Below, in pieces: positions 3,546-38,018 of a stretch of DNA of 43,942 bases. Position 1 is the stretch's first letter. Each line of letters begins with the position of its first letter. Under the pieces are notes generated by a model. The model was not told where the DNA came from. It searched no databases and saw only the letters and a list, made by a program, of their open reading frames with translations. Position numbers and translations under genes: made by a program. The DNA comes from Candidatus Rifleibacteriota bacterium (GTDB lineage: Bacteria > Muiribacteriota > Ozemobacteria > Ozemobacterales > Ozemobacteraceae). The stretch lies in assembly GCA_012517355.1 (NCBI GenBank), contig JAAYVD010000065.1, positions 1-43,942 on the forward strand, in the 5' to 3' direction.

Positions 3546-3628
3546 CGTCCCACACGACGCCGGAAGGGCCCCCTGCCGCCGCAGAAAAAAGCGCGAAACG
3601 CCCGTTTCGCGGCCTGCAAAGGGGCCGA
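3546..3628 (+). repeat. 85-bp dispersed repeat (R1-b)
   Basis: Lies between the convergent peptidase and PilZ genes. It contains an 8-bp perfect stem, CGCGAAAC/GTTTCGCG, with a 4-nt loop, inside an outer stem GGCCCCCTGC/GCAAAGGGGCC. By position it could act as a bidirectional transcription barrier. Confidence 0.75.
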
Positions 3629-3653
3629 TCGCCCCGAGGGGGGAAGGCCCCCC

Positions 3654-5232: not shown

Positions 5233-5320
5233 GCCGACCGGCATGAGGTCGGAAGGGCCTCCCTGGCCGCCACGGATGGCCGCGCGATGCGTCCGTTTCG
5301 CGCAACGTCAGGGGGCCGAC
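5233..5320 (+). repeat. 85-bp dispersed repeat, first of a tandem pair (R1-c)
   Basis: Starts CCGACCGGCATGAGGTCGG and retains CCGTTTCGCGC and the terminal GGGGGCC. The first hairpin is intact; the middle stem is partly decayed. Confidence 0.7.
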
Positions 5321-5400
5321 CGGGCCGAGGCCGGCCACATACCCCCTGGCCGCCGGTGATGGCGGCGCGGAACCGCCGTTTCAGGCACTGCACGGGGGTC
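5316..5400 (+). repeat. 85-bp dispersed repeat, second of a tandem pair (R1-d)
   Basis: Starts within the end of R1-c (GACCGGGCCGAGG) and keeps CCCCCTGGCCGCC, GGCGGCGCGGAAC and CCGTTTC. More diverged than R1-c. Confidence 0.55.
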
Positions 5401-5467
5401 GTCCGGCGGGGCGACGGGCGCCGCCGGCGGAGATCCTGCCGGCACCCGCCGGCGACGGGAGGATGGC

Positions 5468-7821: not shown

Positions 7822-8223
7822 ATCTCCGGGATACTTCAGGGGCCCGGAAGAGTCAACCCGGAGGCCCGCCCCCCGGGAATTCCCACTCATCCTTCCGAAG
7901 CTTTTCTGATGAACAGGGATTTCCGCAGGCCTCGGCCTCATCGACAAGTCAGACCGAAGTTGCCCGGAAAGCCGCTCCAGAGCCCATAGAGAGAATTGCT
8001 GCCCGCCCCCAGGGATTTCTCACCGAGCGTTCCCAAGCTTTCCTGATGACCCGGGAGCCACCACCGCAACTCCCTTTTCCCTTCGTGTCCGGTCAAGGTA
8101 CAATGGGGGCGCCCGGGTTCGGTCCGACGTGCCCCGGCCGCCCTGGAGATCGGCACGCCACGCTGGTTTCCCACAGGCCGGGGAGGGCTGACCGTTGGAA
8201 GAATGGATGGGAGGAACAGGAAC
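7822..8223. other. Intergenic region holding repeat R2 copy 1
   Basis: Contains the divergent promoters of the small secreted protein (minus) and the TerB/TPR gene (a weak TACAAT at 8099-8104), and the approximately 94-bp repeat at 7893-7986. No gene supported. Confidence 0.5.
7893..7986 (+). repeat. 94-bp dispersed repeat R2, copy 1
   Basis: About 80% matched by eye to the reverse complement of 28747-28840. Shared blocks include GATGAACA-GGATTTCCGCAGG, ACAAGTCAG-CCGAAGTTGCCC and GCTCCAGAGCCCAT. The reading frame is open through both copies, and the encoded peptides share SDEQGFPQASA and APEPI, but there is no start codon or ribosome site to call a gene. Confidence 0.75.
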
Positions 8224-13991: not shown

Positions 13992-14153
13992 CGTGGACTC
14001 CTTTCAGGCGATCGTTCATGCCGGCGGGAATCGCCGGCGGGGACGGGGCTCATAAAAGATCTTCTGGTGCCCACACATTCTTTTCCTACCATCCGTTCCC
14101 GGGCGAAGGCCCGGCCAAGCTGAGCTTCCGCGTGGAGAAAGGGTCGCCGCTCC

Positions 14154-14235
14154 CGACCGACACGACGTCAGAAGTGCCCTGTTGCCGCCACGGATGGCGG
14201 CGCGAAACGCCCGTTTCGCACATCGCCAAGGGGCC
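14154..14235 (+). repeat. 85-bp dispersed repeat (R1-e)
   Basis: Well preserved: CCGACCGACACGACGTC, CGCCACGGATGGCGG, then GCGAAAC-GCCC-GTTTCGC. It lies between the two paralogous genes transcribed leftward. Confidence 0.75.
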
Positions 14236-14334
14236 TTCGCCAGCAGAGAGGGTCCAGGGCCTTCGGCCCGGGTGGGGTGAAGGGCACTGGCCCTTCGGCC
14301 AGCCTTTCTGGGGGTCATCGTTCTGGTCCGCCAT

Positions 14335-18412: not shown

Positions 18413-20290
<1,878 letters not shown>

Positions 20291-20291
20291 T

Positions 20292-20375
20292 CCGACCGAC
20301 ACGATGTCGGTAGGGCTTCCCCCTTGCCGCCAGGGAAGGCGGCGCGAAATCCCCGTTTCGCGCGTCGCAAGGGGG
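20292..20375 (+). repeat. 85-bp dispersed repeat, tandem copy 1 (R1-f)
   Basis: CCGACCGACACGATGTCGG hairpin, CCCCTTGCCGCC, GCGCGAAAT-CCCC-GTTTCGCGC stem and GCAAGGGGGCC terminal arm. Confidence 0.8.
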
Positions 20376-20460
20376 CCGACCGACACGACGTCGGCACGGC
20401 TTCCCCTTGGCCGCCACGGTTGGCCGCGCCCAACCCCCGTTTCGCGCCTCGCAGAAGGGC
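20376..20460 (+). repeat. 85-bp dispersed repeat, tandem copy 2 (R1-g)
   Basis: CGACCGACACGACGTCGG hairpin, TTCCCCTTGGCCGCC, and CCCGTTTCGCGCCTCGCAG. Follows copy 1 directly. Confidence 0.8.
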
Positions 20461-20541
20461 CGACCGACCCGACGTCGGCAGGCTCCATCTGCCCCCACCG
20501 GGAGCAGCGCGATACGGCCGTTTCGCCCCTCGCCAGTGGCC
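20461..20541 (+). repeat. 85-bp dispersed repeat, tandem copy 3 (R1-h)
   Basis: CGACCGACCCGACGTCGG hairpin and GGCCGTTTCGCCCCTCGCC. Middle part diverged. Confidence 0.65.
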
Positions 20542-26580: not shown

Positions 26581-26659
26581 CCGGGACCCTTGCCGCCGCG
26601 CGAAGACCTGGTCGCCGCGAATTCCGCGTCCGAGGACCTGCCGGTGGTTTCCCGCGCCC

Positions 26660-26688
26660 GGAATTCCGGGGACATGATACCGGATTCG
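26660..26688 (+). repeat. REP-like motif, copy 3
   Basis: GGAATTCCGGGGACATGATA then CCGGATTC, the classical form of the motif found beside REP-associated tyrosine transposases. Isolated here. Confidence 0.55.
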
Positions 26689-26793
26689 GAGACGGAAGGC
26701 CCGCGGCTCTTTCACCTGGCTGCACGGTCATGCTTGTCTGGCTCTTCACGGCAGGGGTGGCCGCCGGACCAGACGCCAGGGCAAGTTGGCCGG

Positions 26794-28432
26794 TCAGGAC
26801 CGGGCTCCTGATCCCTGGCCGGGGTGTCGGGGCGGGGAAATGAGGCCGGCCAGGCCTTGCAGCGGGATGGCCACCCAGGCGGGGCGGTTCTCGAGTTCGT
26901 AGATCAGTTCGTAGCAGGCCTTTTCGACGAGGAAGAAGCGGAACAGGGGATCGGTTGTGAGATCCGGCGCGGTGCCGTGACCGGTGCCGACCGGCACGAC
27001 GTCGGTCACACCCCTTTTCCGCCGCGGATGGCAGCGTGAAACCTCCGTTTCGCCCACCGCAAGGGTGCCGTCCGCGTACCCCCGAAGGAAACCGGCGACG
27101 GCGCGGTCCTGCCAGGCCCGCAGACGCGCCGCCGCGAGCGCCCTGTCCGCGGCCGGGGCTTCCTGGAGAATGGTCGCCACCGCATAATCGAAGGACCGCA
27201 CCATCCCCGCCACGTCGCGCAACGGCGAATGGAGGGCCCGACGCTCCGCGAGGGAACGGCCAGGTTCCCCCTCGAAATCGATGAGAACGGCGTCGTCCCC
27301 GCACACCAGGACCTGCCCGAGATGGAAATCCCCGTGATGGCGCGTTTTCCGTCCGGCACGGGCCAGGCCGGGAAGGGCCCGCGCCTGGGCCATGAGCGTG
27401 GGCGCCGCGGCGAGCACCTGGCGGGCCGCAGCCTTCCCCCCGGCGGGAAGACCGGCGAGCCTCCGCTCCAGGCAGGCCATGGCTTCCCCGATCTGCCGTT
27501 CGCCGGCGCCGGCCCAGGGTCGTGAACCACTCCATCCACCCAGGAGACACCGACTCCTGGCCCGGTCCCGCCACCACCTCGCGCCGCAGGCGGTCGAGGG
27601 TCCAGGTCCAACCGTCCCCGTCGTTGCGGACCAGCCGCTGCAGGATGGCGAGGGTGTCGGCCGCCGCTGCTCCCCGACGCACCTCGACGGCGCCCCCCGT
27701 GGCGACGAGGAAGGGAGGGGCTCCCGCGGCCGTCACCTGCCGGCCGATCTCCCATTCCGGGTTGATGCCGCCGGAATGGCGCCGGAAGACCTTGAGCATC
27801 CACTCCCCATCGACGATGACCGAGGTGTTGGACTGCTCGAGGGCGGGTCGCCGGATGTCGATGTCGCGGACGTCGCCGCGCCCGGGCAACGCCGTCAGGG
27901 CACTGGTGGCGCAACCCTGCCAGATGGCCGGCCCCGACCGGACGGCCGTCTGCCGGACCATCAACGAGACGAGGAAACGCAGGAACGCGTCCGACCCGCA
28001 GGCGTCGGCCAGTATCCAGGGCCCGTCGCGAGTGAGGAGCCGGCACAGCCCGAATCCCGGAAGAACCTCGCCAGGGTCGTGAACGAGCGCGAGAGGAAGG
28101 AAATACCCGTGCGGCCGTTCCCCGCCGGCAATCTCCAAGGAACCGTCAAGGATCGTGGATCCATCGGGCAACCCCACGATGCCGGTCGGCTGGAACCGAT
28201 ACGCGGCCGGGTCCGCCTCCTTGTCGCCGAACCAGCGCCGCCTGGGCAGCACCTGCGTCAGGACGTTCCGGGCCAGGCCGGCGCGCAGAAACCCGCGGAG
28301 GCTCTCCCAGTCGGCATGTTCGGGGGACAGCCGGAGACGGGGCAGGCGGATCTCCGGCAGCGGCGCAGCGGAGGTGACCGGAGAAGCCTGTCCGACCTCG
28401 TCGGGTCCGGCGGCGCGGATGGGCTTGGTCAT
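26794..28432 (-). pseudogene. Maltokinase-like protein gene, frameshifted, with a repeat inserted in frame
   Basis: The two halves lie in different frames that meet near 27510. The N-terminal half (ATG at 28432, GAGGAGAGCGTC upstream) carries the maltokinase/TreS-kinase lid (LPRRRWFGDKEADPAAYRF, VDGEWMLKVFRRHSGGINPE). The C-terminal half carries the kinase core HHGDFHLGQVLV, the DFEGEP metal motif, SPLRDVAGMVRSFDYA, and the closing block FFLVEKACYELIYELENRP. The family phosphorylates maltose to maltose-1-phosphate for GlgE glucan synthesis. A single-base change would restore it, so this may be sequencing error or decay. Between GYADGTLAVG and TDPLFRFFLVEK lies a segment of about 30 residues encoded by R1 repeat 26986-27069, absent from the family pattern. 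A TGGTAGAAT promoter element lies 40 nt upstream. Confidence 0.8.
26986..27069 (+). repeat. 85-bp dispersed repeat inside the kinase gene (R1-i)
   Basis: CCGACCGGCACGACGTCGG hairpin, GCCGCGGATGGC, GTGAAAC-CTCC-GTTTCGC and GCAAGGGTGCC. It lies antisense within the C-terminal kinase region and keeps that reading frame open. Confidence 0.75.
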
Positions 28433-28480: not shown

Positions 28481-28746
28481 CCGGGTCGGCCGGCCCGGGA
28501 TGGCGCACTCCTCTCCTGTCGCTCCTCTCTCCGGCGCCCCTCTCGGCGGCCTGAATCGGGCTGCCGCGAAGGACTCCGCCAGAATCCGCAAGCGCCAGTG
28601 CATTTTCCCTATTCCGCACGGAAGCGGTTTCCCGATCCATTCAGGTCTGACTTCCTGAAGGAGGTCAGGTCTGCCGAAAGGCCAACCATCGGGAACGCCG
28701 CGGATGTATGAGGGAGAATGGCTGCCGGCGATTCAGGAACTCCCAC

Positions 28747-28840
28747 GATGGGCTCTGGAGCAGTTTTTCGGGCAACTTCGGCCTGACTTGTTGCTGCGGC
28801 AGATGCCTGCGGAAATCCTTGTTCATCGGAAAAACCTCGG
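28747..28840 (-). repeat. 94-bp dispersed repeat R2, copy 2 (inverted)
   Basis: Reverse complement of 7893-7986 with about 80% identity by eye. The match weakens after the GAGCCCAT block, though a GCGTTCCC...GATG end recurs about 60 bp further in both. Confidence 0.75.
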
Positions 28841-28946
28841 ATCGATGGGCGGGAATTCCAGCCGGCGATCCGCCTGGCTTGCCAGGCGGAAGGGACCGGG
28901 TTACCCTGGATCAGAGGGGCACACCACGCCGAGGAGGGAAAACGCC

Positions 28947-29941: not shown

Positions 29942-30252
29942 CCCGCCCTTCCCCACCACCGACTTCTCCAGGCGGAACAGGCATGGACAAACCGGGCGGG
30001 CCAGGATATCCTCGATCCGGGAACGGTGGAAGGCGGCGCCTGTCCAGGCCGGCCGGAGGGCGGATGCGGTCCCCGACCCGATACAGGGAGCGGCGCGCCA
30101 CGCGTGGAGGGCCCGGGCCCCGGGGCCGACCGACACGATGTCGGAAGTGCCCCTTTGCCGCCTCGGAGGGTGGCGCGAAACCCCAGTTTCGCGCCTCGCA
30201 AAGGGGCCGTCCAACCGGGGCGGAAGAGTTTCTCAGACCAGGGAGGGAAGGC
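29942..30252. other. Intergenic region with one R1 repeat
   Basis: 311 bp between the nucleotidyltransferase and STAS genes. The repeat at 30126-30209 sits about 45 bp upstream of the STAS start, probably in its leader. No gene seen. Confidence 0.5.
30126..30209 (+). repeat. 85-bp dispersed repeat (R1-j), best preserved copy
   Basis: CCGACCGACACGATGTCGG hairpin; GCCCCTTTGC pairs with GCAAAGGGGC at the end; the inner stem is GCGCGAAAC-CCCA-GTTTCGCGC. Confidence 0.85.
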
Positions 30253-31633: not shown

Positions 31634-31715
31634 CCGACCGACAGGATGCCGGAAGAGCTTCCCCCTTGGCCGTCACAGATGGCGGCGCGAGACGGGCGTG
31701 GCACACCACACGCCG
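31634..31715 (+). repeat. 85-bp dispersed repeat (R1-k)
   Basis: CCGACCGACAGGATGCCGG, CCCCTTGGCCGTCA, GGCGGCGCGAGACGGGCGTG; the right arm is decayed. Lies between the membrane protein gene and the mod operon. Confidence 0.65.
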
Positions 31716-34772: not shown

Positions 34773-36299
34773 TCACCCGTGGTTGCCCTCTTCCCGCCCG
34801 GCCCCTCCGCGGTCATGGCCGACAACGGCCCCCCCCTCCGCCGGACCAGCCCGGCCACCCCGGCCCGGGCCGACCAGCACGAAGAAGTGGTCGGAACCGC
34901 TGAGCCCGTAGTCGAAATAGTCCCCGCCCAGGTTGGTCGCCGGCCGCGACACCCCGAACACCCCGACCACCGCCGCCTGCCGCACCGTGGGCAGGATCTG
35001 CTCCATGATGCGGTCCTCGGGGTAGAGTGCGAACAGCAGGTAGTCGGGCAGCAGCCGCCCCGGGAAGCCGACCAGGATCCACGACCGGCCCCGCCAGCGC
35101 ACCCGCTCCACCCGCCGCTCCTGGACGCGGCCGAGGTGGCGGGCCAACCGCCGGAACCCCGCCACCCGCGCCAAGGTCGCCGGGAACCCCTCCTCCCCGG
35201 GGTTCTGCACACCGAACAGCCGGAACCCTTCCGCCCCCCGCGTCTTCCGCTCCTGCAGCACCCGACGCAGATACCGCTCCCGCACCCGCGGGACCCGGGC
35301 CATCACCTCGACCAGGACGGCCGGATGCCGCGGGTCCGCGAAGAAGTCCCAGAACAGCAGCAGGTCGCTCCGCGGCAGGGCGAGCCGGGTCACGCTCCGG
35401 GGGAAGTTCAGCACGAGGTCCAGCCCGAGGTCCGCCGATTCGAGCAGGCCCTCCAGCGCCAGGTCACCGGCGCCCGGCATCCTTTCCACGAACTCGGTTG
35501 CCAGCCCCTCGGGAACGTATTTCCGGAGCAGGTTGCCGTTCAGCGAGTCCATCTGGCAGGTCACCCCCGAACCAGCGCGCCAGGTCGGCCGGCGGCAGCG
35601 GCACGGGGCTCAGGTCGGTCAGCGGGCCGCCCCCCGTCCGCACCAGCACCGCGTAGGGGAACCGGTCCCCCGCCGCCCGGATGCGCCGCCCGAGCGTCCC
35701 GAGCAGCGTGGGTTGCCGCCAGACCAGGAACAGGAAGCCACCGCCATCGGTGCAGGGATCGATGTCCCAGAACAGGAAGCCGGGATCCCCGGTCCCCCGG
35801 AACTCCATCGCGGTACCGCGGGCGGCAGGGGCTTCCTCCCATTTCGGTCCGAACAGCTTCGTCACGGCGGGCAACACCGCCTCGACCTGCCGCTTTTCAT
35901 ACGACCGCAGGATCCGCCAATACTTCGTCAGGACCCCCTGCCCCTTGAGCGGTCGGGCCCCCGGCTCGGGCACCAGTTCCCCCCGGTGGTCGAAGAAGGC
36001 CGCCTCGAACGACACCCCCCAGGCCTTCTCCCAGGCCGCCCGGCGGCGCCGGAACCCCGCCCGGTCGAGCCTCCCGACACCAGTCACCGCTTCACCCGGG
36101 TGAACCGGTCCTGGACGAAGCGCCGCGGCTCGGCCTCGTCGATCAGCCGGATGAGATCGCGACGGATCGTGGCCAGCTGCTGCCGCCCCCGTTCCTCCTG
36201 CCGCTGGGCCGCGTACGACGTCACGAACCGCTGCAGGACGGCCGCCGGGAACACCACGAACACCAGGCTGACGATCAGGAACCGAGTCAGGCGGCTCAT
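34773..36299 (-). pseudogene. Receptor-type SpoIIE phosphatase gene, broken by frameshifts and truncation
   Basis: Reading leftward from the ATG at 36299 (overlapping the upstream stop in ATGA), three frames carry one protein. Piece a has a membrane anchor (RFLIVSLVFVVFPAAVL) and the EPRRFVQDRFTRV helix and ends near 36084. Piece b (to about 35560) has the sensor region (AAWEKAWGVSFEAAFFDHRG, GGGFLFLVWRQPTLL). Piece c (35564 leftward) ends with the start of a PP2C/SpoIIE domain, NLGGDYFDYG then FFVLV. There the catalytic domain is lost: the GDVxGHG block that should follow is absent. One junction is at a TTCGGGGGTG G-run. It is paralogous to the partial gene at 1-1729. Mutational decay, or assembly errors for the frameshifts, are possible; the missing catalytic end is harder to blame on errors. 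Confidence 0.65.
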
Positions 36300-37275
36300 G
36301 GCGGGGCTTCTCCCTCGCCCGCCGCCTCGATCCGTTCGAAGAGGGGCCGGAGATGCCGATCCGCCAGGCGCGGCACCAGGTGGTCGAGACACCGGTAGGG
36401 CACCCCCCGGAACAGGCGCCGCAGCTCATCGGCGGGGCAGGGGGTCCCCACCAGGTGCCGGAAGGCGCGCCGGACCCCCTCGAAGGCCGCGCCGGTGCCC
36501 AGGCCAAGGCCGGCCACCACCCGCCCCACCACGGAATCGCGGGAATAGTCGGCGGTGCGGAAGATCCGGCTGTCCGGGTCGTCCACACCCGCGTCCGACC
36601 CTTCCCCGCTCCCTCCTGCGCTCCCGTCGCTGCTTCCTTCCTTCCTCGCTCCCGCGCCCCCTCCCCCGCTCCCGTCGCCACGTCCTTCCTTGCTCGCTCC
36701 CGCGCTCCCGTAGCCGCGTCCTTCCTTGCTCGCTTTCACGCTCTCTTCCCAGCGCCCGTCACCGATCCCTTCCCCGCGCTCCCCCGCGCTCCCTTCCCCT
36801 CCTCCGGATTCCCGGCCCCCCCGGTTGGCGGTGGGCTTGCCACCGGGGACGGCGCGGACGGCGACCCGGATGGGCCTGGCATCGTGGCCGGAATCTGATC
36901 CGCCGGCAGGAGGAGGTATTCCACCTCGAGACGGGCGTCGGCCGGCCGGCCGGCCCACGTGCGGTCGTCGAGGTCGAAGAACCAGTCGGTGCCAGGTCCG
37001 CCGTCGGCGTCGCGCACCTGCCACAGGTCACCCCACGGCGAGGAGGCGGTGACCAGCGTCTGCCCCGGCGACAGCATCGGCTGCAGGAGGCCGCCCGCCC
37101 TGCCATGGCGGTACTCGAACCGCAGGGGGCCGCTGGCCAGGCCCGGCCGGCCCTCGAACCGCAGGGCGGGGCTGGCCACGGGCTCCGCCCGGGCGGGGAC
37201 GAGGAACCTGCAGAGCAGCACCAGAACGGCTCCCAGGAGCCGGGCCGGGGGCCGCCGCAGGCGCCGGGCGGCCAC
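36296..37275 (-). pseudogene. Secreted protein gene with low-complexity middle, frameshifted
   Basis: The first part, from about GTG 37275, has a signal-like segment (RLLGAVLVLLCRFLVPARA) and a strand-rich domain (LRFEYRHGRAGGLLQPML, LVTASSPWGDLWQVRDADGG). It passes a Pro/Ser linker and stops in its frame at 36736. The second part, in another frame, continues through a Gly/Ser/Arg low-complexity stretch into an ordered helical end (DSRIFRTADYSRDSVVGRVV, VPYRCLDHLVPRLADRHLRP) that ends overlapping the start of the phosphatase gene. The switch falls near a run of seven C at 36816-36822. No family recognised. It probably formed an operon with the downstream phosphatase. Confidence 0.5.
36590..36800. 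repeat. Low-complexity imperfect tandem repeat
   Basis: Multiple degenerate units of CGCTCCC or CTTCCTTGCTCGCTCC type encoding Gly/Ser/Ala/Lys/Glu blocks such as ASKEGRGYGSAG and ASKEGRGDGSGG on the minus strand. Confidence 0.65.
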
Positions 37276-37359
37276 GCCCGCAGGCCCGGCGCAGGCCCGG
37301 AACCTGAGCGTCGGCGGGGGATCCGGGCGCTGACCTGGAAGTGGGGAGACAGCGCCGGG

Positions 37360-38018
37360 ATGGGGCATTGGCCAGGGGTGGCCGACAGCTTCGGCAACTA
37401 CGCCGTGGCCCAGCTGAAGCGCATCAAGACCCATCGGCGCTGGCTCCTGGAGCCGCCCCAGACCGAACCGATCCGGTCCGCCTTCGGGCTGCCCGAGCGG
37501 TCGCTCATCTCGAACGATCAGCTGGGGGCCGCGGAAGTCCTGGTGCAGCGCGGCGACCTCGAACCGGCCAGCCTGCCTCCGACGAACTGGACGAGCTGCG
37601 CCGGCTGGCCCCCGCCTACCTGTCGCGCAAGGCCCTCGCCCACTACCGCGGGTTCTTCACCCAGGTCTGCCGCCAGCACGAGAAGGATGCGGTCGGCGGG
37701 CTCAAGACCATGCTCTATTCCTACCGGGTCGCCCTGACCGGCATCCACCTGCTGCGGACCGGCGAGGTCGTCGGCGACCTGAACCGGCTCGCCCCCCAGT
37801 ACGGCTTCGCGGAAGCCCTCGACCTGGTCGCCCGCTACCGCGCCAGCTCAGAAAAGGCCTGCCTGCCCCCCGCCGAGGATGCCCGCCACCGCGAATGCTG
37901 GCCCGCCCTGCTGGCCCAGCTCGAAGCCGCGGAAGCCGCCAGCCCGCTGCCCCCCGAGCCCCCCGCCCCCCAGGCCTGCTCCGACTGGCTCACCGCCCAC
38001 CGCCGCCGCGACCTGTAG
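37360..38018 (+). pseudogene. RlaP/YcgL-like nucleotidyltransferase remnant
   Basis: Two frames joined near 37570 together give the C-terminal two thirds of a PF10127-type protein. Frame one: SFGNYAVAQLKRIKTHRRWL and EPIRSAFGLPERSLIS. Frame two: ELRRLAPAYLSRKALAHYRG and GLKTMLYSYRVALTGIHLLR. In the family the catalytic nucleotidyltransferase domain with its GSxxxG and DxD motifs precedes this region; it is missing, cut off where the divergent low-complexity gene begins. RlaP proteins are found beside RNA ligases. Clearly non-functional as written. Confidence 0.6.

Follow-up and report, generated by a model that had tools for sequence, protein, structure and literature searches.

A putative maltokinase gene of Candidatus Rifleibacteriota (assembly GCA_012517355.1) contains, within its reading frame, a copy of a short dispersed repeat, R1. 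This raises the question whether the copy is an insertion of a mobile element and, if so, how such an element could enter coding DNA while leaving the reading frame intact. We address it here for the window, i.e. the whole analysed stretch of 43,942 nucleotides, and for further sequence of the same genome and its relatives. We consider it probable that R1 is a mobile palindromic repeat of REP/MITE-like type, non-autonomous and restricted to its lineage, and that the kinase copy is a frame-neutral insertion. Hereby, transposition as the process, the flanking motif as target and a neutral effect on the protein are what we infer from the observations below.

The maltokinase gene and its R1 copy

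The host gene is found in two pieces on the minus strand. Its C-terminal half (26794-27480), with a 228-aa ORF at 26797-27480, matches the NCBIfam family TIGR02457, 'putative maltokinase' (7.7e-55, best stretch at profile positions 337-480), as well as the PDB entry 4O7O (1.9e-28). The N-terminal half of the same maltokinase lies in a different frame at 27515-28432 (TIGR02457 2.7e-34, profile positions 5-262), and both halves are matched by the Mycobacterium maltokinase structures 4O7O and 4U94. These matches bear out the maltokinase-like host named in a preliminary description of the locus; since the gene is split, each of the TIGR02457 pieces stays below the whole-protein cut-off. The frame change is located at about 27515 (27481-27515), upstream of R1, in a GC-rich palindrome (GCCGGCGCCGGC), and we cannot tell apart an assembly error and a real frameshift at this position. 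On the R1 side, the catalytic motifs HGDFHLGQ and IDFEGEP are intact and the 228-aa ORF is free of stops. Elsewhere in the window, predicted coding segments at 34869-37575 switch frame and strand repeatedly around a Ser/Pro-rich tandem repeat (36601-36816), for which indel errors or decayed genes are possible causes; several of the genes at 34.8-37.6 kb look split between frames, as the maltokinase does.

The R1 unit occupies positions 26987-27067 of the plus strand, i.e. 81 nt or 27 codons that lie antisense and in frame in the maltokinase and account for residues 137-164 of the 228-aa ORF. In a search of 2.41 Mb, the family profile recovers it at E = 2.9e-18, as a full unit with both termini in register, and reversed sequence yielded zero matches at E <= 1. 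The boundaries proposed earlier, 26986-27069, were correct to within two bases, and the insertion then put at about 30 residues holds as an insertion with its size corrected to 27 codons. It had also been called exactly a translated R1 copy, which is accurate for family membership and register and too strong for sequence identity, the closest other copies being 79-87% identical by BLAST against the same genome. The flanks of the kinase copy, decoded independently, have the same reading frame on both sides, which confirms the earlier statement that the frame is preserved in antisense.

In the consensus structure of R1, four helices make up a 5' hairpin and, behind it, a three-way junction, with 93.5% of cells paired. 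In the kinase copy, the 5' hairpin (CCGACCGGCACGACGTCGG) spans 26987-27005 on the plus strand and has a 5-bp stem; this helix is paired in 97.5% of cells across 48 copies. Its opening six bases, CCGACC, match the motif CCNNCC. The second domain, the three-way junction (27010-27068, plus strand), is composed of an outer stem and inner hairpins at 27020-27033 and 27034-27055. Helices 2-4 are paired in 89-95% of cells in the same 48 copies, and the outer stem shows T-A to C-G covariation. Taken alone, the kinase copy folds just weakly better than its shuffles (z = -1.78). Directly 3' of the unit, at 27068-27073 (plus strand), the target-like motif CCGTCC is found.

Size and range of the R1 family

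The R1 unit (CCGACCGACACGAYGTCGGAAGTGCCCCTTTGCCGCCACGGATGGCGGCGCGAAACGCCCGTTTCGCGCATCGCAAAGGGG) has a length of 81 nt, with a variant of 84 nt, and is normally followed by CCGWCC. We counted 371 copies in 283 clusters in 2.41 Mb, which extrapolates to about 1,100 copies; this sample covers about a third of the genome, in stretches partly picked around known copies, and the density is for this reason an estimate. Most copies are intergenic. Among 24 genomes of the family, R1 is present in this genome (G000) and in the congener G002 (8 matches), and the other 22, including the congener G001, gave no match. A search of plasmids and phages for R1 likewise yielded no match, and no Rfam family matches the window.

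All nine R1 clusters of the window lie on the plus strand. Between genes we find a copy at 30126-30211, which is among the best preserved in the window, a further copy at 14153-14238, three head-to-tail units at 20292-20539 with a weak fourth match at 20143-20210, a degenerate copy at 3546-3629 and a partial copy at 31634-31707. A two-unit array is located at 5234-5403, and another degenerate copy (2034-2115) lies where a predicted coding segment starts. In gaps between co-directional genes of this genome, R1 has the sense orientation in 80 of 122 cases (80 vs 42). We also considered R1 as a 5' leader and rejected this role: the apparent excess at gene starts (67 of 87 one-sided clusters) does not hold once both neighbouring genes are weighed, and only the sense bias is left. 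Apart from R1, the window holds an inverted repeat pair of 126 nt (7876-8001 and 28734-28859, 83% complementary), apparently another dispersed repeat.

Reading frame and stop content of R1 within genes

To decode the flanks of R1 clusters we used a period-3 Markov coding model trained on this genome, with no information passing through R1 itself; the gene calls stem from this home-made model and some of the 'genes' may be spurious. Of the 256 clusters decoded, 136 lack coding sequence on both flanks, 87 adjoin it on one flank only and 33 on both. Of the latter, 28 have the same frame on both flanks, 3 are shifted on the same strand and 2 have flanks on opposite strands. The probability of 28 or more same-frame clusters among 31, at an expectation of 1/3, is 6e-11, and in all of the 28 in-frame clusters the ORF runs through R1 free of stops. 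A stricter fixed-window test with margins gave 8 same-frame against 3 shifted clusters, the kinase copy not being counted. As 69% of random spans are 'same frame', R1 is strongly depleted from genes.

The unit itself favours an undisturbed frame. Full copies within genes have a length divisible by three without exception (24 of 24), vs 82% of those between genes. Of 103 R1 copies, 60% are open in all six frames, vs 12% of non-coding 81-mers. Frame preservation thus follows from the unit's length, divisible by three, and its scarcity of stops, and it does not by itself show selection. Copies in genes use five of the six combinations of frame and orientation (sense 0, 14 copies; sense 1, 8; antisense 1, 10; antisense 0, 2; antisense 2, 2), so that no single conserved frame for an R1-encoded peptide is found. 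The frame bias is due in part to the codon phase of the flanking motif: many antisense inserts come after an Asp codon, as is expected when GGACGG is read G-GAC-GG.

Empty sites in the kinase and in other genes

Compared with orthologues, the kinase copy looks like, and probably is, an insertion into the loop that joins the two last long helices of the C-lobe. In a 38-position segment, 92 of the 94 spanning orthologues, drawn from many phyla, have at most 24 residues (median about 15) and the other two have 30 and 37; hereby the empty site relies on distant orthologues in a loop whose length varies among them. R1-free orthologues carrying the same residues, named in the preliminary description as the case that would speak against an insertion, were looked for and not found among the orthologues listed, none of which has an R1-like peptide. 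The loop from the GYA motif (residue 406) to the final helix (residue 421) comprises 14 residues in 4O7O vs 44 here, and in the orthologue of G001, from the same genus and without R1, it is 28 residues shorter, as counted by eye. In the AlphaFold2 model, the R1 residues have pLDDT values of about 50-58 and lie between two helices (110-141 and 178-198) with blocks mostly above 83.

Two other genes provide empty sites at codon resolution. In a DegT/DnrJ/EryC1 aminotransferase, ArnB-like (L232:4893-6227; Pfam 2.3e-100), R1 corresponds to residues 185-212; several of the family's other genera show a jump in the alignment from residue 186 to 215, a gap of exactly 28 codons that equals the 84-nt variant of R1. 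In both congeners, G001 and G002 (L331, L332), the same loop holds unrelated low-complexity inserts of other lengths, which indicates that it takes insertions repeatedly. In a YdjC-like protein (L298:18667-19713; Pfam 6.4e-44), R1 encodes the insert PTDTTSEVPLGR, and G001 and G003 are 27 codons shorter at this site. A UvrA-related protein of 2100 aa with two UvrA-like halves (L242 11580-17879, minus strand) is longer by 84 residues, among which lies a partial R1. Two R1 copies are also seen near the N-terminus of an HhH-GPD glycosylase ORF (L249 13049-14155, minus strand), where they may lie upstream of the true start.

Ends, flanking motif and arrays

Single R1 copies begin sharply, with CCGACC as their 5' end, in unrelated surrounding sequence. 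At the 3' flank, positions +1 to +6 of 203 clusters show C (0.80), C (0.86), G (0.58), T (0.47), C (0.83) and C (0.74), so that the middle bases of CCNNCC are conserved much below the level of the element. The motif is loosely kept, with an exact CCNNCC in 99 of the 203 clusters; its commonest form, CCGTCC (23/203), contains CGTC. Alternatively, this 3' motif could be no target at all and represent the element's own end in degenerate form. A target-site duplication, which the preliminary description had considered at the boundaries, did not emerge from comparison of the flanks of 100 single copies. Terminal inverted repeats are absent as well, the ends CCGACC and CAAAGGGG not being inverted copies of each other. 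Insertion into hairpin loops, as judged from flanking inverted repeats, was rejected, one striking case (C98:21906) standing beside no excess over shuffled pairs.

The head-to-tail spacing of R1 is mostly 81 or 84. Neighbouring units of arrays have a median identity of 0.69 vs 0.71 for random pairs, and about 17% of the pairs are unusually alike. Since neighbours are as unlike as random members of the family, we infer that most arrays arose by new insertions at the motif of an existing copy and some by local duplication.

Taken together, a sequence of events may be proposed. R1 would insert immediately 5' of a motif of the CCNNCC type and leave no detectable duplication of the target, and its own start, CCGACC, would recreate the motif, so that later insertions beside an old copy would yield head-to-tail arrays. 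A copy landing in a gene would add 27-28 codons while neither shifting nor ending the frame, because it measures 81 or 84 nt and is usually stop-free in every frame. Purifying selection would then clear most intragenic copies, with survivors in loops and linkers. A length divisible by three, open reading in all six frames and a start that restores its own target together offer a testable account of low-cost spread through coding DNA.

Alternative explanations

One objection concerns the state of the host gene. If the maltokinase was already decaying, R1 would lie in a pseudogene and be silent on tolerance in a working protein, and the match of TIGR02457 by two pieces in two frames, divided at about 27515, agrees with such decay. 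Against it stand the intact motifs and the uninterrupted ORF on the R1 side; moreover, the GC-rich palindrome at the frame change makes an assembly error plausible, and other nearby genes are split as well. We judge prior decay to be unlikely. Because the assembled gene carries a frameshift, tolerance in the maltokinase is not proven, and the general claim of tolerance rests on the DegT/ArnB-like and YdjC-like genes. The earlier proposal that R1 is or was mobile and tolerated in coding DNA is thus upheld genome-wide, by the 28 in-frame clusters and the empty sites in these two genes, and is unproven for the kinase itself. Misassembly could also have joined unrelated kinase pieces through the repeat, R1 being a high-copy repeat in a genome of 184 contigs. 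However, the best other matches are 79-87% identical, so that no exact repeat was available for an assembler to jump, and the kinase runs in order on both sides of R1; this scenario is highly improbable.

That the 27 residues are an ancestral segment of the kinase, resembling R1 by chance or convergence, might be suggested by the variable loop length of the orthologues. Yet the profile match covers R1 from end to end, both termini being in register, and the residues are missing from 92 of 94 spanning orthologues, none among those listed carrying them; we assign this possibility a practically negligible weight. A different question is whether R1 copies and arrays spread through recombination, gene conversion among repeats or slippage during replication rather than through transposition. 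The 17% of adjacent units that are unusually similar would fit this, as would the fact that no transposase linked to R1 was found, the sole Y1_Tnp gene lying beside another repeat. Dispersed single copies with sharp ends, and exact insertions of 27 or 28 codons relative to empty sites, nevertheless call for an insertion process, and we consider such a spread improbable.

Relation to known repeats

Rickettsia palindromic elements (RPEs; Ogata et al. 2000, cited in PMC10969869) are short palindromic repeats that occur in many copies, in frame in unrelated protein genes, and their host proteins are thought to keep their fold. RPEs are about 150 bp long, each with a conserved encoded peptide (PMC10969869). 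R1 resembles them as a palindromic repeat that lies in frame in several unrelated protein genes (28 clusters), and it is set apart from RPEs by description, namely by its length of 81/84 nt, its use of several frames and its unrelated lineage. REPs are mostly intergenic, dispersed hairpins, a minority of which is intragenic and encodes 20-30 residues; in-frame intragenic copies of GTAG and CGTC REPs are known from several phyla, uvrA genes included, and DNA repair genes are frequent hosts (PMC3733652). CGTC REPs are single hairpins with a stem of 8-9 bp, a loop of 4-5 nt and a CCA tail, occur mostly as head-to-head dimers and have no dedicated transposase (PMC3733652). R1 shares with REPs the dispersed hairpin and the mostly intergenic location with an intragenic minority. 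The CGTC within its commonest 3' flank, CCGTCC, might correspond to the tetranucleotide tag that REPs of the CGTC or GTAG type have at one end, although the flanking motif is only loosely kept. In contrast to CGTC REPs, it measures 81 nt, has four helices and forms head-to-tail arrays, and unlike GTAG REPs it does not flank the RAYT-like gene. Like MITEs, R1 is short, non-coding, present in high copy number and probably moved in trans, but it has neither terminal inverted repeats nor a detected target duplication.

In conclusion, we place R1 as a new family among the in-frame palindromic repeats, a kind already known; it falls outside the structural definition of REPs and lacks the conserved peptide of RPEs. 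The range of bacteria with in-frame repeat insertion thereby grows by a further lineage, whose family is large and can be counted. Two empty-site comparisons, in the DegT/ArnB-like and YdjC-like genes, reach codon resolution.

The RAYT-like gene and a second repeat family

The single Y1_Tnp (RAYT-like) gene of the genome (L345 4060-4854, C109) is flanked by GTTCCGGGGACATGATACCG repeats, with the nearest R1 about 6.5 kb off. The gene is present in G000 and G002, both of which have R1, and absent in G001, which does not, a pattern that is suggestive. As its flanks in G000 carry a different repeat, we rejected RAYT as the mover of R1.

A second repeat family begins with the first 24 nt of R1 (CCGACCGACACGAGGTCGGAAGTG), continues with a different second hairpin and has units of 60 nt, a length that is likewise divisible by three. 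Its loci are L146, L150 and L154 in G002 and C34:46266, C124:116805, C153 and C54 in this genome. R1 might be one member of a group of modular, 'frame-neutral' mobile repeats, in which a shared 24-nt head (CCGACCGACACGANGTCGGAAGTG) that recreates the target is joined to varied second hairpins in units of 81, 84 or 60 nt with few or no stops; we put this forward tentatively, as a somewhat doubtful proposal. If it were true, length and stop-free reading would be kept by selection at the level of the element, and such repeats would be a continuing source of protein inserts. The GTTCCGGGGACATGATACCG repeat is also found just past the 3' end of the maltokinase gene, at 26656-26700 of the window.
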